Shown piece after piece: positions 5,934 to 19,616 of a DNA stretch of 29,337 bases (its first letter is position 1; each line of letters starts with the position of its first letter). This DNA is from a virus. The stretch covers positions 1 to 29,337 of the IMG/VR virus record IMGVR_UViG_3300029258_001841, one strand, 5' to 3'. The notes below the pieces were generated by a model. That model saw nothing but the letters and a program-made list of their open reading frames with translations. It did no database searches and was not told where the DNA came from. The translations under genes and the position numbers were made by a program.

Positions 5934-7247
5934 TCATTGTATTGATGGGAATAGCTTCCCATCGGGTCCGGGTTCATCGAGTAAGTTGTCGTCATCGGGG
6001 AAGGGACCGCTCATCCCCTTGGCATTCTCGATGCGCTTCTGCAAATGCTTGATAATCTTGTCCGCCTTCTGAAGTGATATCGAATCGAACCGCTTACCTT
6101 TCCCGATAGCGAAGACGGTCCGGAGCTGCTTGATTATCGCCTTCTGTTCGGACTCGGATTCCGTGAGCTGAGCAATGAGCGATTTGATTTCAGCGATTTT
6201 ATCTTCACTCGCTGGCTCGTCAGCCTGAACGGGTAGAGCCGTCTCACGACCGCTCAGGTCGCTCAGGGGAAGCGATTCGCGTTCAGGTGGGGTATCGGGC
6301 TGGCTCTCCCGAGGACCATCTATCAGAGCATCGTATGTCCCTTCAGAGGCCGGAGGGGGATTGAGCGCTTTCATACCCTGACCGCCGGGAAGCTCGATAT
6401 AGATATCACCCGGCTTGAGCGTTCCGGACTTCTGTTTTTCGAGGAGCGCTCCTACCGATTCGGGGAAATGGACGTATACTTCGTAGATATCGGTCTGGCG
6501 GAAGTCCCCGGTTTTCTGGTCCATATACTTCGCCGCCTTCGAGCGGATGCGGAGCTCCAGCTTGAGCGGTCTCCACTCCCGGCCCTGAAGCCCGACCAGT
6601 TTTTTTACGGCATCCTGAAATGCGTTGATAGAGTTTATGCCGCCGCTCTTGAATCGTACCAGCTCGAAGCCCGGGACATCGTAGAGCCAGATATAAGCGA
6701 TAAGCACTTCGCCGCACTGACCGGGCTTGATTCCATCGCCGCCGATTACATACGGGCAATTCTTCGGGTCGCACTGAATCGTCCTCCGCTCCATCGACTT
6801 ACCGACTCTCCGCTCCGCGCTTCCATCATTGACCCACTTCAGGCTTCCTTCATCGAAGCGCCAGTGGTTGTGACAATGAAGATGACTGCCCTGATAGCAC
6901 TCGCGCCCGATGGTGATAAAGTTCTTCGGGTGAATGGGCCATGTGAAAGGAACCTTAATCGGTTTCTCGCCGAGCTGCTTCCGTATCGCGTCCATGATAT
7001 CAGGAGGGAAGGAGCGGAAGCGGAAGTAATTCAGCTTCCCCGGTGATTCACGTCTGAGTCCAGCGCCGCACTTCGGGCAGCTATCCTGCCCTTCGGGGAT
7101 ATCATCTACCGGAATCGGTTTCCGGCATTGAGGGCACCAGCGGACTTTCTGACCGATGCTTATAATGCCGAGCCGGGACATCCTCGGGTTCTTCATCCGC
7201 TCCTCTCTTGCCAGCACTCGCCCGGAAATATCGATGTTAGATTTCAT
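5934..7247 (-). CDS. Gp3-like recombination directionality factor family protein
   Basis: 437-aa protein. Near residues 38-60 two Cys pairs (CPQC and CPKC) form a zinc ribbon. The middle (about 90-280) has the pattern of the phage Gp3-like family named after the phiC31 recombination directionality factor: IPHPKNF-type entry block, RRTIQCDPKNCPYVIGG, PGQCGEVLIAYIWLYDVPG and FKSGGINSINAFQDAV. The C-terminal 130 residues are low-complexity and then helical (EDKIAEIKSLIAQL). Many lytic phages encode relatives with no integrase, and none is seen here, so a replication or recombination role is as likely as controlling integration. ATGA overlap with the ATPase gene upstream. Confidence 0.6.
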   Translation of the reverse strand: MKSNIDISGRVLAREERMKNPRMSRLGIISIGQKVRWCPQCRKPIPVDDIPEGQDSCPKCGAGLRRESPGKLNYFRFRSFPPDIMDAIRKQLGEKPIKVPFTWPIHPKNFITIGRECYQGSHLHCHNHWRFDEGSLKWVNDGSAERRVGKSMERRTIQCDPKNCPYVIGGDGIKPGQCGEVLIAYIWLYDVPGFELVRFKSGGINSINAFQDAVKKLVGLQGREWRPLKLELRIRSKAAKYMDQKTGDFRQTDIYEVYVHFPESVGALLEKQKSGTLKPGDIYIELPGGQGMKALNPPPASEGTYDALIDGPRESQPDTPPERESLPLSDLSGRETALPVQADEPASEDKIAEIKSLIAQLTESESEQKAIIKQLRTVFAIGKGKRFDSISLQKADKIIKHLQKRIENAKGMSGPFPDDDNLLDEPGPDGKLFPSIQ

Positions 7248-8548
7248 GCTTTCACCATCCCATCTTCGATATAGATACCAATCTCCCCGCTCGTATCGAC
7301 GTACTCGAGCCAGACCTGAAAGTCATGCTCATGGGCGAGCTCGTCGATGACCACGAAATTCTTATCACTGATGAGCGATGCTTTCCGGATGAAGAGCACC
7401 CGGAGCTCGGGATTCATTGCCATGCCGATGAGCGCTGAGATTTTTATCTGCTCGCCATCCGATGCCTGCTTGACCGGGATACCGTTATAGAGGAGGAGGT
7501 TATCGCCGAAAGCCAGACCGTCGACCGGGAACTTTGCCGCTTCGATTGCGTCGCGCTTCTTCTTCTCATGCGCATGGAGCTCGCGCTCGATATCTTCATG
7601 AGCTTCCCGCTTCGCCTTCGCTTCGGCTTTGATTTCGTGCCAGCGTTTCTTCTGGCGGATGCGCTCATTGATTGCCTCAGAGTCGGCGAGCTTCCGCTGG
7701 ATATCATCGATGTCGGGGAGTTGTTTTTTCGCTTCCATCATCGCTTTATCCGCCACCTTAAACTGCTCAGCGATTTTCGGCAACGTCTCGGTATTGAATA
7801 CTTCTCGCTTGGTCTTCAGCTCGATTAGCTTTTTTTCCAGCTCAGCAATTTCGCCTGTGATATCGTCAAGATATCTCGCCGCCTCGTTTTGCTTTTCCGC
7901 TTTATGATTCGCTTCACGTTGCAGTTCCCGAAAAGCGTCCTCGGCCTGTAATGCTTGATTGAGTTCGTCCGTCAGTTTCGAGACCGATACCAATTCATCC
8001 GGAGCGTCTTTATCATAAGTGAGATTCTCCAGATTCCTCTCGACCGAGCGCATATCCCGACCAGCTTCATGCCGCTTATCATAGAGCCGCTCGTATTCCG
8101 CCTGCCACTCCTCGGGGTCGAATCCTAAATCGATGAGCTTCTGCATGACTTCATACTGCTCCCGCTCCGACATCTCGCAGAATTCCATCGGGTCGAAAGT
8201 GAGCTGGCCGATAAGTTCATTCAGTACCTCTTGCGGATTCCGGAGCGTGTGTCCGTCCTTCGCGATGACTTTCAAGCGGGTCGTGTATCCGCCATCCTTC
8301 CTCTTGAACTGCCGGATGACTTTCAGCGTTTCGAGCTCGACCGATATCTCTCCTTCGTCCTTCCCTTTGCGGAGCGGTTGCTCCGGGATGAGCCGCTTAC
8401 CGCCGATGGCGTAAGCGATTGAATCCATGATGGTCGATTTGCCAGCGCCGTTATCACCGCTGAGCTTGACCACGTTCGGGTCAGGCGTGATTTCGATAGC
8501 CTGAACTCCTTTGATATTCTCTACTTTCAATGCAATGACCTTTGGCAT
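7244..8548 (-). CDS. SMC/Rad50-like AAA ATPase
   Basis: 434-aa protein from ATG 8548, with AGGAG 7 nt upstream; frames reaching 8989 would run into the nuclease gene and are rejected. Walker A GDNGAGKS is at residues 31-38 after the typical IKGVQ strand. Residues about 160-340 are heptad-rich, charged coiled coil. A degenerate ABC signature ASDGEQIKISALIG and a Walker-B-like VLFIRKASLISDKNFVVIDE close the head. It resembles short Rad50/SbcC-type phage ATPases that handle DNA ends, and it sits beside a RecB-type nuclease (13-nt gap) with which it may work. Confidence 0.85.
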   Translation of the reverse strand: MPKVIALKVENIKGVQAIEITPDPNVVKLSGDNGAGKSTIMDSIAYAIGGKRLIPEQPLRKGKDEGEISVELETLKVIRQFKRKDGGYTTRLKVIAKDGHTLRNPQEVLNELIGQLTFDPMEFCEMSEREQYEVMQKLIDLGFDPEEWQAEYERLYDKRHEAGRDMRSVERNLENLTYDKDAPDELVSVSKLTDELNQALQAEDAFRELQREANHKAEKQNEAARYLDDITGEIAELEKKLIELKTKREVFNTETLPKIAEQFKVADKAMMEAKKQLPDIDDIQRKLADSEAINERIRQKKRWHEIKAEAKAKREAHEDIERELHAHEKKKRDAIEAAKFPVDGLAFGDNLLLYNGIPVKQASDGEQIKISALIGMAMNPELRVLFIRKASLISDKNFVVIDELAHEHDFQVWLEYVDTSGEIGIYIEDGMVKA

Positions 8549-8561
8549 TATAGGTCTCCTT

Positions 8562-9551
8562 TCAGATGGGTTTTGAGATGATGTACTCGCAATGATTATT
8601 GTACGGGCAATCAGAGCATGGACTTGAGAAGCCCGAAAGGATGGCTGGTGACCATACTCCGGTCCGCTCCGACTCCCGGATGCTGAGTGCCGTATGCGTG
8701 ATGATATCGAGCAGCTTGTCGACTCCACTCTCATCAACGACCATCGGGGGCGGCTGCGGTCGCTTCGGCTCGAGAATCCCTTCGGCGAAATTACGCTTGC
8801 CGGGGTCATAAGCGTTGAGGTCGACGTACTGGATGAAGTCGGGATATTTATTGATATGCTGGGTTTTGATGCTACAGAACTCGCACTGATAAATTCCCGG
8901 CTCGTCCGTTTCTTTCCAAACATGGATATGCGCGTTATCGTGATGGCTCGCCACGTAAGGCAGGTCGTCATCGAGCGCGATGTATCCATGCTTCAGCGCG
9001 TAGAATTCGACCGCGAGCTGTATATTCCTCTGGAGTTCAATCATGTTCGGAGCGCTCGCCGATGTCTTGAGTTCGTGGATGCCGAGCCGTCCGTCGACCG
9101 CCACTATCTGGTCGAACCGTCCTCGCATCCGAATCGGCTCGTCCCCGTCAACGGGGATATCGAACCAGAACCATGATTCCGACTTCCGGACATCGAGCCC
9201 GGAGTTATGATGCCAGTATCCGCTCACGATACGGACCGCCGTTTCGGTTCGACCTTCCCGGCTGAACTGCTTATCTCCCCATCGGACGGGAGCGGCATCA
9301 TTAATCGATTCCTCCGCACCGATTATCTGCTCGACCAGTGACGGGATATCGAGCGATGGATTTTTGTGAAGCTGAGCTATCGCCCGATGCACCGCCTTCC
9401 CGATTACTGTAGCGGCCCATTGATATTCGGGTCGGACGTTCGGCTGCATCCTGATTCGATACAGCTCTCCGCATCTCCGGTATCTCTGGAGGCCGCTTAC
9501 GCTCTGATACCAGTTTCGGCCCTTGTACTTCGGTCCTTCGTAATCAGTCAT
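8562..9551 (-). CDS. Fe-S cluster PD-(D/E)XK nuclease (RecB/AddB/Cas4-like)
   Basis: 329-aa nuclease of the PDDEXK_1 type. Motifs in order: RRCGELYRIR with C27, GKAVHRAI with H55, GRFDQIVAV with D147, and GIHELKTSA with E160 and K162. A C-terminal CSDCPYNNHC gives C312, C315 and C321. With C27 these three form the four-Cys iron-sulfur site known in AddB and Cas4, which staples the nuclease fold. Likely a 5'-3' exonuclease for recombination or end processing, acting with the SMC-like ATPase next to it. Starts MTDYEG at 9551, 8-nt overlap with the upstream gene. Confidence 0.85.
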   Translation of the reverse strand: MTDYEGPKYKGRNWYQSVSGLQRYRRCGELYRIRMQPNVRPEYQWAATVIGKAVHRAIAQLHKNPSLDIPSLVEQIIGAEESINDAAPVRWGDKQFSREGRTETAVRIVSGYWHHNSGLDVRKSESWFWFDIPVDGDEPIRMRGRFDQIVAVDGRLGIHELKTSASAPNMIELQRNIQLAVEFYALKHGYIALDDDLPYVASHHDNAHIHVWKETDEPGIYQCEFCSIKTQHINKYPDFIQYVDLNAYDPGKRNFAEGILEPKRPQPPPMVVDESGVDKLLDIITHTALSIRESERTGVWSPAILSGFSSPCSDCPYNNHCEYIISKPI

Positions 9552-13576: not shown

Positions 13577-13605
13577 ATAATATCATGGAATCAGGGAAAT
13601 ATCAA
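13577..13605 (-). promoter_or_regulatory. Extended -10 sigma70 promoter for the leftward block
   Basis: Reverse strand: TTGATA (13600-13605), 17-bp spacer, TATTAT (13577-13582) with TGA directly before the -10. It lies in the divergent region, and transcription would start near 13570, about 35 nt before the first leftward gene. Confidence 0.7.
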
Positions 13606-13666: not shown

Positions 13667-13694
13667 TTGAAATCCGTATCCCGTCTGATATCAT
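13667..13694 (+). promoter_or_regulatory. Extended -10 sigma70 promoter for the rightward block
   Basis: TTGAAA (13667-13672), 16-bp spacer ending TGA, and TATCAT (13689-13694). It faces the replication-initiator-like gene with a leader of about 110 nt that holds two stem-loops. No other good rightward promoter is seen in 13568-13811. Confidence 0.55.
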
Positions 13695-13811: not shown

Positions 13812-14918
13812 ATGGCGCGCAATTATCAGAACATCAGAACGGCGTACTGGGATTCGGCGCGGGGCCGGGAAGCTCCGCTATCATCGGACGAAATACTGGT
13901 CGAGCTCTTTTTAATCACATCCCCACAATGCGGACCGTCCGGAATTTTCATCATCAATCCCGAGACGGTCGGATACTACACCGGGCTCGGGCATGACCCC
14001 GGACAATCCCGAGGCGATATTTTCGGCAACGGGAAAATCGAAGGGACGCTCCGGGCTCTGGAGTCGAAGGGACGGCTCCGGCTCTATCCCGGCGGCTGGA
14101 TATGGGTAATGGGGAAGTGGGAATTCGAGGCGAAGAATCCTAACATCCAGAAAGCATTATTCATCGAGGTTGAGTCAGCGCCCGGCGAGGTAATCCGGGA
14201 CTTCCTCGACCGCTATCGGCAGACCTTTACCGAACGCATCCCGGAGCGGATATTACAGAGGGCTTCGAGGGCCGTCCGGCAAACCCTTCCCGAAACGGTA
14301 TCGGAAACCGTTCCCGAAACGGTTACGGGAGTAGACCCCGAAGGGACTCCCCTAACTAAAGTAGAAGTAGAAGAGAATAGAACTAATTTATGCTCCGCTT
14401 CACAGACCCGGAGCGCCAGTAATCGCTCGAAACAACATCCGGAATCACTCATGCTTGACGATAACCTGAAGGGCTGGGTATGCTCTCTCATCCCGGAGCT
14501 CGAGAATAATAAATCCGCCCTGAAGCGGAATCTCGATGCGCTCGAAAAGCTTTTCCGACTCGACCGGGAAAAAATATGCCCTCACTATGGACCCGAGCAA
14601 TGGAAAGCTCATGTAATCGAAATCCTCGAGTGGATGGCTCATGACACTGAAGGAAATGGGAAGTGGAAGGGCTGGGCCTCTGTTTTTTCATCGATACCCC
14701 GGCTCCGACAGAACGGGTGCGAGAAGTTTATATCCGCTCGCCGTTCCTTCCTCTCCAGAAATCCACAGCGCGATATCACTTCAGATATAGCCCGACTCGA
14801 AGGGCGAATCATATCTCTCGAAGCTCAGGCGGGAGCCGAACCCGAGGATGAACTTATCGCCCTGCAACTCAAGAACGCCCGTATCGAACTATCACGACTG
14901 AAAGGAAGCAATGAATGA
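13812..14918 (+). CDS. Replication initiator / O-like protein
   Basis: 368-aa protein, first of the rightward block. The first 115 residues look like a winged-helix replication-protein domain (LSSDEILVELFLITSP, GIFIINPETVGYYTGL, GTLRALESKGRLRLYPGGWIWV). A polar linker of about residues 140-215 follows (ETVSETVPETVTG repeats), then a helical C-terminal region (PEQWKAHVIEILEWM, WKGWASVFSSIPRL) like the phage helicase-loader or DnaD-type ends. This build and the iteron-like DNA within the linker recall lambda O. It would bind the origin and recruit the host helicase. No conserved catalytic residue is expected. Lower certainty because the call rests on architecture. Confidence 0.55.
   Translation: MARNYQNIRTAYWDSARGREAPLSSDEILVELFLITSPQCGPSGIFIINPETVGYYTGLGHDPGQSRGDIFGNGKIEGTLRALESKGRLRLYPGGWIWVMGKWEFEAKNPNIQKALFIEVESAPGEVIRDFLDRYRQTFTERIPERILQRASRAVRQTLPETVSETVPETVTGVDPEGTPLTKVEVEENRTNLCSASQTRSASNRSKQHPESLMLDDNLKGWVCSLIPELENNKSALKRNLDALEKLFRLDREKICPHYGPEQWKAHVIEILEWMAHDTEGNGKWKGWASVFSSIPRLRQNGCEKFISARRSFLSRNPQRDITSDIARLEGRIISLEAQAGAEPEDELIALQLKNARIELSRLKGSNE
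14287..14396. other. Candidate replication origin inside the initiator gene
   Basis: TTCCCGAAACGGT occurs at 14287-14299 and 14311-14323, with ACCGTT in reverse orientation between them (14307-14312), giving alternating inverted arms. They are followed by an A-rich stretch at about 14355-14396 that could serve as the unwinding element. The arrangement copies lambda ori within O. It could instead reflect only the repeated protein sequence ETVSETVPETV. Confidence 0.4.
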
Positions 14919-15163
14919 CACCCGGACTCATCACGGAGTTTTCAGGCTCCATAACGGAAATCAGGAAGACGAAGGATTATGACTTCATCGAAATAAATTC
15001 GCATGGGTTTTATTCTCAGCTCCGGCTCCACTCGGGACAATCTCAAATTCTGGAACCCGGTCGAATTGTTCGCGTTACCCTCTCAGTGGAGCCGGAGTCC
15101 TTCGATAAGCCCCGACCACCAAACATTGAAGAATTTGAATTCATCGACACGGAGGCCAAATGA
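14915..15163 (+). CDS. Hypothetical 82-aa small beta-rich protein
   Basis: Starts MTPGLITEFSGSITEIR at 14915 with an ATGA overlap and a GGAAG upstream. The pattern of short strands (FIEINSHGFYSQL, LEPGRIVRVTLSVEP) suggests a small beta-barrel, possibly OB-like, which would suit a partner of the replication protein. No direct family match recognised. Confidence 0.6.
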   Translation: MTPGLITEFSGSITEIRKTKDYDFIEINSHGFYSQLRLHSGQSQILEPGRIVRVTLSVEPESFDKPRPPNIEEFEFIDTEAK

Positions 15164-16028: not shown

Positions 16029-16203
16029 GCACGGCTATGACATGGCTGATGGGGATACTCGCGGTCGGATGCCGGGAGGTCGTGGAGAAGGTCCGGGCGG
16101 ACAGTGCACCTGTCCCGAATGCGGCTATACCATGGCGCATGAGACCGGGCAACCATGCTACGAGATAACCTGTCCGAAGTGCGGGGCGAAGATGGGGCGA
16201 TGA
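16018..16203 (+). CDS. 61-aa glycine-rich zinc-ribbon protein
   Basis: Starts MKDEHGYDMADG at 16018 (GGAGAT upstream), overlapping terS by 11 nt and queE by 4 nt. A Gly/Arg-rich N-terminus (GRMPGGRGEGPGGQ) leads to CTCPECGYTMAHETGQPC and CPKCGAKM, a two-knuckle ribbon with His. Small proteins with this pattern are found in many bacteria and archaea, with no known function. Its place at the head of the modification genes makes it a candidate accessory subunit, which is inference only. Confidence 0.7.
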   Translation: MKDEHGYDMADGDTRGRMPGGRGEGPGGQCTCPECGYTMAHETGQPCYEITCPKCGAKMGR

Positions 16204-16802
16204 CTATGGAATTCGGCATCAATGAGATTTTCTACAGCATCCAAGGCGAGGGATTTCATGCCGGACGGTCGGCGCTTTTCATCCGCTTCGCCGGGTGCAA
16301 TCTCAACTGCGACTTCTGCGATACCGATTTTTCGGAAGCGGTCCGGCTCAGCGCGGAAGGAATCATCGAGATGGGGAGAGCCGCTCTCGGGGAACGGGGA
16401 GCGGGTAGACCGTCTATCATCGTGCTGACCGGAGGAGAGCCAGCTCTTCAGGCTACCGGGCCGCTCCTGACTCTGCTTCGTAAACGGCTCTGCCCGTACA
16501 TCGCTATCGAAACGAACGGTACGGTCCCCATCAAATGCGCTCCCGACTGGATAACCCTCAGTCCGAAGTCGGAAGATGGCCTCGTCCTCACTACCTGCGA
16601 TGAACTGAAGGTCGTTTATCCGGCTGGGGTGGACCCGCTCGCATTCGAGCGCTTCGGGACGGGTAAGCGATACATCCAGCCGCTGTGGGTCGCGGACCGA
16701 TACATCCGGGAGGTTTATCTTCGTGACGCAATCAATTTCGTATTGGAGAATTACCGGTGGAAATTATCAATCCAAACTCATAAACTAATCGGGGTGAAAT
16801 GA
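16200..16802 (+). CDS. queE: 7-carboxy-7-deazaguanine synthase (radical SAM)
   Basis: 200-aa enzyme that rearranges 6-carboxytetrahydropterin to 7-carboxy-7-deazaguanine, step three of preQ0 synthesis. The N-terminal FYSIQGEGFHAGR is the QueE hallmark; CNLNCDFC gives the radical-SAM C33-x3-C37-x2-C40 that holds the 4Fe-4S cluster, followed by DTDFS. LTGGEPALQ is the SAM-binding GGE motif, and ETNGT and LSPKS follow in the usual order. Length fits the family. ATG 16200 overlaps the zinc-ribbon stop; ATG 16206 is an alternative. Translationally coupled to queD by ATGA. Confidence 0.93.
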   Translation: MTMEFGINEIFYSIQGEGFHAGRSALFIRFAGCNLNCDFCDTDFSEAVRLSAEGIIEMGRAALGERGAGRPSIIVLTGGEPALQATGPLLTLLRKRLCPYIAIETNGTVPIKCAPDWITLSPKSEDGLVLTTCDELKVVYPAGVDPLAFERFGTGKRYIQPLWVADRYIREVYLRDAINFVLENYRWKLSIQTHKLIGVK

Positions 16803-17161
16803 TGATTATCTGTAAGACCTACGGCTTCGATGCCGCACACCATCTGACGGAAGTACCGGAGCATCACCCATGCTCCTTCGTTCACGGTCATAGTTATCGA
16901 GTTGATATCGCTCTGGAATCAGAGGCACTGGAAAAGGGTATGGTCCTCGACTTCCACCAGCTCGATGATATCATGCGACCTATCCTCGCACAGTTCGACC
17001 ACTCCGACCTGAACGACACACTCGAGAATCCTACCGCTGAGCTGATATCAATCTGGATTGCTCAGAACATCGTGATGTTAATCCCGCAAGGCATCCGGCT
17101 GCTTTTCGTCCGGGTGTGGGAGACGGAGAAAGCTTATGCCGAGTACCGACCCACTGGCTGA
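16799..17161 (+). CDS. queD: 6-carboxy-5,6,7,8-tetrahydropterin synthase
   Basis: 120-aa QueD, which turns dihydroneopterin triphosphate into 6-carboxytetrahydropterin. Zinc ligands are visible as H15 (FDAAHHL) with H29 and H31 (VHGHSY); C25 in HPCSF is the catalytic cysteine; DFHQLDD, FDHSDLND (Asp-His pair) and NPTAE follow in family order, and the pterin-holding Glu lies in VRVWETE. Full length. The 3' end overlaps folE by 26 nt, so all four synthesis genes are tightly coupled. A second ATG directly follows the first. Confidence 0.94.
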   Translation: MMIICKTYGFDAAHHLTEVPEHHPCSFVHGHSYRVDIALESEALEKGMVLDFHQLDDIMRPILAQFDHSDLNDTLENPTAELISIWIAQNIVMLIPQGIRLLFVRVWETEKAYAEYRPTG

Positions 17162-17666
17162 CCTATACCGAGCAATCGTCGAGGAGTTTGATGACCCGAA
17201 GCGTGAAGGGGTCCGCGAGACACCGGAACGAGCGGCGAGGGCAATGCGCGAACTTCTGACCCCGGTCGAGTTCCGCTTTACCACGTTCGAGTCGCAGGGC
17301 TACGACCAGATGATTGTAGACCGGGATATCAAGTTTTTTTCGCTCTGCGAACATCACATGATTCCCTTCTTCGGCACCTGCTCCATCGGATATATCCCGA
17401 AGGACCGAATCGTCGGTTTATCGAAGCTGACCCGCTGCGTGAATTATTTCGCCCACAGGCTCAATACTCAGGAGTACATGACTCAGAATATAGCCGACTT
17501 CATCGAAGAGAAACTAAAACCGAAGGGTGTAGGTGTGATAATCAAAGCGCGACACCTCTGCCGGGAGATGCGCGGGGTTCAGGGTCATGGCGAGATGATT
17601 ACGTCATGCCTGAAAGGAATTTTTCTTCACAATCCCGAAGTGCGAGAGGAGTTCATGAAGTTATGA
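17136..17666 (+). CDS. folE: GTP cyclohydrolase I
   Basis: 176-aa FolE (type IA), which opens GTP to dihydroneopterin triphosphate, the first step of the 7-deazaguanine path. SLCEHHMIPFFG supplies zinc ligands C71 and H74, LSKLTRCVNYFAHRLNTQE is the active-site helix, and ARHLCREMRG provides C142. It is somewhat shorter than E. coli FolE at the N-terminus but complete in its core. GGAG upstream of ATG 17136 lies inside queD. A phage copy lets the pathway outrun host folate-linked supply. Confidence 0.95.
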   Translation: MPSTDPLADLYRAIVEEFDDPKREGVRETPERAARAMRELLTPVEFRFTTFESQGYDQMIVDRDIKFFSLCEHHMIPFFGTCSIGYIPKDRIVGLSKLTRCVNYFAHRLNTQEYMTQNIADFIEEKLKPKGVGVIIKARHLCREMRGVQGHGEMITSCLKGIFLHNPEVREEFMKL

Positions 17667-18298
17667 AAGCAGTCATCCTTCTGAGCGGTGGTATGGATTC
17701 GGCTATCTGCATTGCGCTCGCAATCGAGCAGGGATTTGAACCATATCTATTCCACATGAGCTATGGACAACGGACCGAAAAACGCGAATTGAAGTCGGTC
17801 ATCAATCTCGCGAAGCATTACGGGCTCAATCATCCGGAGCGGGTATTGATAGTGACTGACCGGACAATCTCATATATCGGCGGGAACGCCATCACGGACA
17901 GAAATATTCCGGTGCCCACGGATGGGGAAATAATCGGCGTTCCCGCTACCTTCGTTCCTTTCCGGAACGCAATCCTTCTCTCCTACGCCGTAACATGGGC
18001 TCAGGTTATCGAAGCGGAAGCGATTTATTTCGGCGTGGTCGATGGGGAGAGGAGCAGATATCCCGACTGTCATAAAGAATTTATCGAGTCGTATCAGTTA
18101 GCCGTGGATGCGGGGATTCCCGATAATCGAATTCAGGTAATTACCCCGCTCTATTACGACACGAAGAGGGAAGCTTATGAATGCGCTTTACGACTCAACG
18201 TACCGCTTGAACTGACGTGGAGCTGTTACCAGAATGAAAACGAACCATGCGGGAAATGCGAATCATGTATGGCGCGAGCGAAAGCGATGGATTTATGA
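17663..18298 (+). CDS. queC: 7-cyano-7-deazaguanine (preQ0) synthase
   Basis: 211-aa QueC, which uses ATP and ammonia to convert 7-carboxy-7-deazaguanine to preQ0. The PP-loop SGGMDS is at residues 8-13, SYGQR follows, and the C-terminal zinc site is C188 with CGKCESC (C196, C199, C202). No glutamine-amidotransferase domain is attached, so this is not the Gat-QueC form that leads toward archaeosine in some phages. Start at ATG 17663 overlaps the folE stop; a longer frame to 17606 is not needed. Confidence 0.95.
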   Translation: MKAVILLSGGMDSAICIALAIEQGFEPYLFHMSYGQRTEKRELKSVINLAKHYGLNHPERVLIVTDRTISYIGGNAITDRNIPVPTDGEIIGVPATFVPFRNAILLSYAVTWAQVIEAEAIYFGVVDGERSRYPDCHKEFIESYQLAVDAGIPDNRIQVITPLYYDTKREAYECALRLNVPLELTWSCYQNENEPCGKCESCMARAKAMDL

Positions 18299-19107
18299 TT
18301 ATCTACCACGTCGAACCCCTTCACTGGGTAGGGTATACGGAAAAGATGGGTGCGGAAAAATACGACGCGCTCTATTCTTTCGTAAACAAAACCACCATCG
18401 AGAATCAGGTATTCCCGAGCACGAACATCAATCGCCTCTTTATTGACTCTGGAGCATTCAGCGCTTTCACCCGAGGAGTGGAGATTAACCTCGATGAGTA
18501 TTGCGAATGGCTCCGTGCTCATGAAAAGCGGATTACATCATACGCCGCACTTGACGTTATCCGGAACTGGCGGGGTAGTAGAACCAATCTTGACCGGATG
18601 CTTTCATACGGACTGAATCCGATTCCCGTTTTCCACGCGCAAAGCCCGATGGAGGAATTGCGTCGGCTCTGCAAGGAACATGACTATATCGGCCTTGGCG
18701 GTATAGCGGACGACGTGAAGCGCCGCCGCCAGCTCCTTACCACTTGGCTTGATTCCTGCTTTTCAATCATCCGGGATTACTGGCCTATTAAGGTACATGG
18801 CTTCGGTATCACTATGCTTTCCGCGCTGACGAGGTATCCTTTTTATAGCGTGGACTCATCAAGCGTTACATACGCCATGAAGATGGGATTGATAATTACG
18901 TTCACCGGGTCAAGCATCCGCCAGAAAACCTATAACGAGATTGTGAAGTCGGGGAAAGGGGTAGACCTCCAGCCGCACTGCATCGATAACCCAGATGAAG
19001 AAAAATCGCGATACAAGAAACGCATCGCTCGCGCTTACAACGAATACAGGAAAGCGGAAAAATACATTACCGACCTCTGGAAGCTAAGGGGAATATCATG
19101 GGATTAA
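18295..19107 (+). CDS. dpdA: DpdA-like DNA 7-deazaguanine transglycosylase
   Basis: 270-aa TGT-superfamily barrel, taken to exchange guanine in DNA for preQ0. Key blocks are LFIDSGAFSAF with D51 (matching the general acid/base Asp of TGT's DSGGFQ), YAALDVI, YIGLGGIADD, VHGFGIT and YSVDSSS with D187 at the expected nucleophile position. Phage DpdA proteins are of this shorter size, without the extra domains of bacterial DpdA. Context is decisive: it directly follows queC with an ATGA overlap. ATG 18265 is another possible start since no strong ribosome site is seen. Sequence specificity cannot be told. Confidence 0.82.
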   Translation: MIIYHVEPLHWVGYTEKMGAEKYDALYSFVNKTTIENQVFPSTNINRLFIDSGAFSAFTRGVEINLDEYCEWLRAHEKRITSYAALDVIRNWRGSRTNLDRMLSYGLNPIPVFHAQSPMEELRRLCKEHDYIGLGGIADDVKRRRQLLTTWLDSCFSIIRDYWPIKVHGFGITMLSALTRYPFYSVDSSSVTYAMKMGLIITFTGSSIRQKTYNEIVKSGKGVDLQPHCIDNPDEEKSRYKKRIARAYNEYRKAEKYITDLWKLRGISWD

Positions 19108-19616
19108 AGCGATTCAAGGAGATTCCACTGAAGCAGCTCGATAAAGCCCCGTGGAATTACAAGACCGATAATGATGAACTGAAAGAGAAGCTGAAGGAAA
19201 ACCTTCGCCGGAACGGGCAGGTGGAAAATATCGTAGTGCGCGAGATGAAAGGTGGAAGGTACGAAATCGTAAATGGTAATCATCGCTTCGATGCTCTGGA
19301 AGAGCTGAGCTTTGAAAAAGTCATCTGCTATAACCTCGGTGAAGTCAGCGATAAGGCGGCGCGTCGGCTCGCCATCGAGCTCAATGAGACCCGATTCGAG
19401 ACGGACCGGATAAAGCTCGCCGTGACCATCAAGGATATCGCCGATGAATTCGACCTCAGTGACATATCGCTTACGACCCCGTATGAACTGGAAGAACTGG
19501 AAGCGATGGTCGACCTGCTTGATTTCGATTTCGATAAGTTCGAGGAAAAAGAACTCCCTCCCATCGATGACGGGATGATAGAATGTCCCGAGTGTGGACA
19601 TAAGTTCAAGCCATGA
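19098..19616 (+). CDS. ParB/Srx-like domain protein with C-terminal zinc ribbon
   Basis: 172-aa protein. The N-terminal 100 residues are a ParB-like nuclease domain: IPLKQLDKAPWNYKTD, LKENLRRNGQVENIVVRE, and YEIVNGNHRFDALEEL, the phage form of the GEHR nucleotide-binding motif. It ends MIECPECGHKFKP, half of a zinc ribbon. Stand-alone ParB-like proteins often precede TerL in phages. Overlapping dpdA by 10 nt and terL by 4 nt, it may take part in packaging or in DNA modification. Such domains can use CTP or cleave DNA; neither is shown here. Confidence 0.75.
   Translation: MGLKRFKEIPLKQLDKAPWNYKTDNDELKEKLKENLRRNGQVENIVVREMKGGRYEIVNGNHRFDALEELSFEKVICYNLGEVSDKAARRLAIELNETRFETDRIKLAVTIKDIADEFDLSDISLTTPYELEELEAMVDLLDFDFDKFEEKELPPIDDGMIECPECGHKFKP

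Follow-up and report, generated by a model that had tools for sequence, protein, structure and literature searches.

A probable replication origin of 12-bp-phased iterons inside the initiator gene of a phage

To our knowledge, the replication origins of most uncultured phages are unknown. In the virus record IMGVR_UViG_3300029258_001841, of which positions 1 to 29,337 were analysed as a single stretch of 29,337 nucleotides (the window), an initiator-like gene carries a short repeat within its own coding sequence, which raises the question whether the origin of this phage lies inside the very gene whose product would use it. The first-pass annotation had proposed a lambda-like origin in the linker-coding part of the gene, at 14287-14396. 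We conclude that the region very probably is an intragenic phage replication origin, the iterons of which would be bound by the product of the same gene. Origins of this intragenic kind are already known, and the short phased AASSSTT cores (S being C or G), together with a second array, represent a variant of it. The features of the locus are the following (positions in the window):

13577-13605, minus strand: promoter-like sequence of divergent orientation, facing the leftward genes (match to the consensus only)
13667-13694, plus strand: promoter-like sequence ahead of the initiator gene (match to the consensus only)
13812-14918, plus strand: initiator (replisome-organizer-like) gene, 368 aa (PHROG 1701 match and family HMM)
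13812-14261, plus strand: N-terminal winged-helix domain, recognition helix at about residues 73-85 (AlphaFold model, Foldseek)
14280-14327, plus strand: array of four 12-bp iteron units within the linker codons, QTLPETVSETVPETVT (sequence)
14282-14288, plus strand: core 1, AACCCTT
14294-14300, plus strand: core 2, AACGGTA, with one mismatch to AASSSTT
14306-14312, plus strand: core 3, AACCGTT
14318-14324, plus strand: core 4, AACGGTT
14352-14392, plus strand: AT-rich tract, candidate unwinding region, containing AAAGTAGAAGTAGAAGAGAATAG (75% AT over 40 bp)

The four units of the array (CAAACCCTTCCC GAAACGGTATCG GAAACCGTTCCC GAAACGGTTACG) encode QTLP ETVS ETVP ETVT and occupy codons 157-172 (gene nt 468-515), downstream of the winged-helix codons. 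The alternating AACGGT/ACCGTT arms noticed at first reading are present (AACGGT at 14294 and 14318, ACCGTT at 14307), and the window has exactly two copies of TTCCCGAAACGGT, at 14287 and at 14311, 24 bp apart; the repeat is real, but it begins 7 bases before the start originally given to it and is better described as four units of 12 bp. As a phased chain, the four AASSSTT-like cores obtain a score of 7; 300 dinucleotide shuffles of the entire window gave no score above 4, and codon-preserving shuffles of the gene reach 7 with P = 0.001. Plain lag-12 self-similarity of the gene has no significance beyond the peptide repeat (P = 0.68, codon shuffles), so that the excess over the peptide repeat is modest in the window gene alone, where the array has only four units, one of them imperfect, and the case is therefore carried by the family evidence.

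The A-rich tract said to follow the repeats could be confirmed at 14352-14392. It starts 25 bp past the array, is one of only four such AT-rich loci in the 29 kb window, and coincides in part with the 46-bp stretch of lowest stability in the initiator gene (14346-14391, within the top 0.14% of the window). The tract has a run of five A at a spacing of 3, and AAAGTAGAAGTAGAAGAGAATAG is similar to the DnaA-trio side of the origin of B. subtilis, where DnaD binds the complementary element, TnnT (PMC10201434). This likeness is a lead, not a result; in the homologs, A at each third base is mostly forced by Q, E, D and K codons, although L176, L180 and L182 have it in other frames.

The N-terminal 150 residues of the encoded protein are predicted to fold as a winged helix (AlphaFold, pLDDT 85.8). 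Foldseek returned only weak matches among solved structures, to winged helices of the MarR/CRP type, and the closest viral folds include replisome organizers. The match to PHROG 1701, 'DnaD-like helicase loader', is weak (E 4e-4 to 1.2e-3), whereas an HMM built from 44 homologs, with the window protein left out, scores it at 36 bits (E 6e-11). Judged from these sequence matches, weak alone and firmer with the HMM, the domain fits the DnaD-like replisome organizers of PHROG 1701. No Pfam entry matched the protein, and domain and PHROG searches for a C-terminal helicase-loading domain matched no family beyond the N-terminal part.

Searches with the window protein alone retrieved no relative among phages or viral contigs, and the first relatives came from scans of viral contigs for the repeat pattern, a set biased by its selection. 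These scans returned many winged-helix initiator genes among unrelated coding repeats (such as those of NGNGDG and VTETVT proteins), and the motif alone is therefore not diagnostic. Similar repeat DNA is read as PETVPETV in L017 and L039, as PLPKP in L002 and L083, as NGSGNG in L060 and L071, and in mixed fashion in L032, while in L061 the array lies 3' of the initiator gene. Because of the bias, a second set was selected by protein: N-terminal-domain alignment searches, after removal of motif-fetched clusters, gave 56 non-redundant genes, a sample which is still enriched for near kin of motif carriers, since the search seeds included motif-found genes. These 56 genes contain 293 AASSSTT cores, in comparison to 84.7 +/- 7.9 in codon shuffles (3.5-fold), and 93 pairs of same-class cores at 11/12 bp, in comparison to 2.5 +/- 1.6 (37-fold). 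Core density is 5.8/kb in the gene and 0.49/kb in the flanks, and nearly all cores lie either at gene nt 150-230, around the recognition helix, or at 350-500, in the linker. The linker cores are distributed across all three reading frames (66/52/30), 33 genes hold cores in more than one frame, and L195 combines five linker sites in three frames.

These counts bear on an alternative in which the protein has a low-complexity spacer, (ETVS)n, as its linker, and the repetition of codons, or slippage, produced the repeated DNA as a side effect. The window gene taken by itself would agree with such an explanation, its repeats being in frame and their lag-12 similarity no higher than in codon shuffles. 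The homologs, however, keep the DNA cores in three frames and with different peptides, an 11-bp spacing shifts the frame between adjacent sites, cores and phased pairs exceed codon shuffles by the factors given above, and in L061 an array follows the initiator gene; we therefore regard a repeat at the peptide level as quite unlikely. Constraint on the iterons as DNA is seen at the level of the family, while the window alone offers the phased chain and a lag-12 similarity without significance. The first-pass annotation had named conservation of the repeats beyond the protein level as a check, and free divergence of synonymous sites in relatives as an argument against an origin; in distant homologs selected by protein, the cores persist as DNA whichever of the three frames they fall in, and in numbers far beyond those of codon shuffles, the opposite of free divergence.

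Next to the cores, the relatives share a second element. Their linker array usually continues without a gap into a tract of hexamers, for the most part (CAGGAA)n, in which codon use is strongly biased: CAG:CAA is 176:11 inside the tract vs 299:204 outside, and GAA:GAG is 139:25 vs 589:554. The tract also occurs in other frames or periods (CAGTAA, CAGTAG, 7-bp units). Homologs from annotated phages and further genomes share, by eye, this layout but have different cores (AAGGGGCTT, AACGTT, ACGATACGT), and some of the most distant HMM matches are without a visible array.

Arrays of the same core were also encountered elsewhere. Eight AACCGTT repeats at exactly 12 bp are found at L017:2875-2965 in a different initiator family (PHROG 2149/1408), so that the core extends beyond a single family; extension of the search through the winged-helix family of L017 and L059 gave no new members. 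Five further arrays (L030:7709-7811, L052:3814-3928, L024:3440-3494, L036:380-434 and L067:6992-7046), with 5-10 copies of AACSGTT at exactly 12 bp, lie in apparently non-coding phage-contig DNA, within a few kb of terminase-like genes and not of a recognised initiator. In L032 (11225-11371), a winged-helix gene of a viral contig contains a tandem 63-bp unit, each copy of which holds several AACSGTT sites in different frames.

Most relatives (L112-L221) carry a second AASSSTT mini-array at gene nt 150-230, around the codons of their own recognition helix, and in many of them its core is the core of the linker array. At least two cores in both regions are found in 43 of the 56 genes. Across 81 genes, the helix-codon and linker regions of one gene share 837 7-mers, where 375 +/- 23 would be expected from codon shuffles and 390 +/- 34 from regions paired across genes. 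The core class tracks the clade: EAFDKAF goes with AAGSCTT, ETVSET with AACSGTT and ERVSKGF with AAGGGTT. From winged-helix topology, the recognition helix would be the part which reads the core site. The window gene lacks the second array. About evenly balanced, in our judgement, is the wider reading that these genes form a large family of phage initiators with their sites written twice in their own gene, in which a change of the core rewrites the helix that presumably reads it and both specificities shift together, with the window gene as a reduced, linker-only form, and in which arrays plus hexamer tract locate the origins of many uncultured phages.

Among characterised systems, phage lambda offers the obvious comparison. 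Its origin has the same order of elements, in that the codons of the initiator domain are followed by iterons in those of the linker, then by an AT-rich tract and the C-terminal part, with the annotated iterons at O gene nt 348-432. In the O genes of lambda and of Stx phages the origin lies mid-gene, in the codons after the DNA-binding domain, as does the array in the window. In Stx phage P27, iteron changes leaving the O protein unaltered abolish transformation by an origin plasmid (PMC7466680). The window gene shows the lambda-type architecture, with iterons between the codons of the N- and C-terminal domains and the AT-rich tract directly alongside. The likeness does not extend to the parts themselves: lambda iterons are 18-bp palindromes spaced 20-24 bp, whereas the window has 7-bp cores at 12 bp; lambda O contains no AASSSTT; neither lambda O nor P22 gp18 matched the HMM of the window initiator's family; and lambda O is followed by a helicase loader or helicase gene, whereas no dnaC, dnaB or P gene comes after the initiator in the window. 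By these comparisons, the window initiator does not belong to the lambda O family, and the label lambda-like holds for the architecture, but neither for the protein family nor for the type of iteron.

Other phages come closer in one respect or another. ORF13 of TP901-1 and Rep of Tuc2009 bind repeats within their own genes, which serve as the origin (PMC8965321); the Tuc2009 rep record carries the note 'contains origin of replication', and its CAACCAA-type repeats, 11 bp apart, are followed by an AGGAT purine tract. Both proteins are annotated 'DnaD-like helicase loader', as is the PHROG 1701 match of the window initiator, but they fall into PHROG families 186 and 5708 instead of 1701, did not match the window family HMM, and the Tuc2009 core is a different one. 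Gp38 of SPP1 binds direct repeats in its own gene (gene 38, oriL) beside an AT-rich unwinding element (PMC6316719), a likeness drawn from the published description. Homologs of the PHROG 1701 type are present in Escherichia PhiR5_2, Acinetobacter A3926.3, Klebsiella ST846-OXA48phi9.2 and ST13-OXA48phi12.4, and Geobacillus PK5.1. All five have a winged helix homologous to that of the window protein, repeats phased at 11/12 bp in linker codons, and a purine tract coding QEQE or EKEK. They differ from the window in their cores (AAGGGGCTT, AAAGGGTT or ACGATACGT) and in having dnaC, dnaB or another replication gene next, and the enterobacterial and Acinetobacter genes also in a second core copy within the winged-helix codons. 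A literature search, which covered few of the subscription journals, found no description of an array of short AASSSTT cores, spaced by roughly one helical turn, that is matched by a second array in the recognition-helix codons.

Taken together, the observations are best explained by a mechanism in which the N-terminal winged helix of the initiator would bind the 12-bp-phased AASSSTT iterons in its own linker codons; several bound copies, at about one per helical turn, could then melt the adjacent AT-rich tract, after which the C-terminal part may assist in loading of the replicative helicase. We infer that the encoded protein binds the array, that the tract melts, that the helicase is loaded there and that the site is active as an origin. 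The same sites might instead be an operator, at which the protein represses or pauses its own transcription while the origin lies elsewhere. Sites inside a gene could indeed serve as a roadblock, and sequence data do not separate the role of operator from that of origin. Nevertheless, the AT-rich tract beside the window array, the hexamer tract beside most homolog arrays, and the use of such intragenic repeats as origins by lambda, SPP1, TP901-1 and Tuc2009 make a purely autoregulatory array very unlikely; the two roles are also compatible with each other. That the sites serve another protein, either a host factor or the ParB-like protein encoded in the window (19098-19616), is barely credible: a ParB gene does precede the initiator in one relative, but the other four annotated relatives viewed have none beside it, and the class of core varies with the clade to which the initiator winged helix belongs, and the two arrays of a gene agree with each other, both of which favour the protein that the gene itself encodes.

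GC skew, suggested as a check, does have its minimum at 14.5-15.5 kb, but the coding strand switches there too, so that the minimum gives no independent support for an origin and was dropped as evidence. The initiator is followed by an 82-aa ORF and a terminase small subunit-like gene. In annotated phages, by contrast with the window, its homologs have dnaC or dnaB after them, which is the place of lambda O (a helicase loader or helicase gene lies 3' of the initiator in L107, L108, L110 and L111), two of them lie after cII-type genes, and for two the annotation reads 'DNA replication protein O' or 'DNA replication initiation protein'. Terminase-based searches yielded close relatives (99.8%) beginning at 15053 or 15813, none of which covers the repeats, and no detectable copy of the window initiator in the relatives so found. 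One of these, L223, has a terminase 65% identical and collinear head genes, with no homolog of the initiator detected in its 55-kb record; the replication module may have been exchanged.

The window contains no Rfam family and no tRNA. On the minus strand at 7244-9551, an SbcC-like ATPase ORF overlaps a PD-(D/E)XK exonuclease ORF by more than 400 bp, as called mechanically, and the two probably form a recombination module. The ParB_N-domain protein is encoded directly before the large terminase gene. At 16155-19107 lies a 7-deazaguanine cluster, comprising a QueE-like radical SAM protein, QueD/PTPS, GTP cyclohydrolase I, QueC and a homolog of queuine tRNA-ribosyltransferase, which suggests that the phage modifies guanines in its own DNA; in that case, modified G may be present in the iterons as well.

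Judging from sequence patterns, many other phages probably likewise hold their origin in the initiator gene, in repeats each 11-12 bases that are kept as DNA. Linkers of the (ETVS)n, (PLPK)n or (NGSG)n type would then reflect a constraint on DNA and not a protein function. With the concordant array in the helix codons, it would become directly testable how a DNA-binding domain coevolves with its site, and a frame-independent phased repeat in a recognisable initiator gene would offer a direct way to find the origins of phages.
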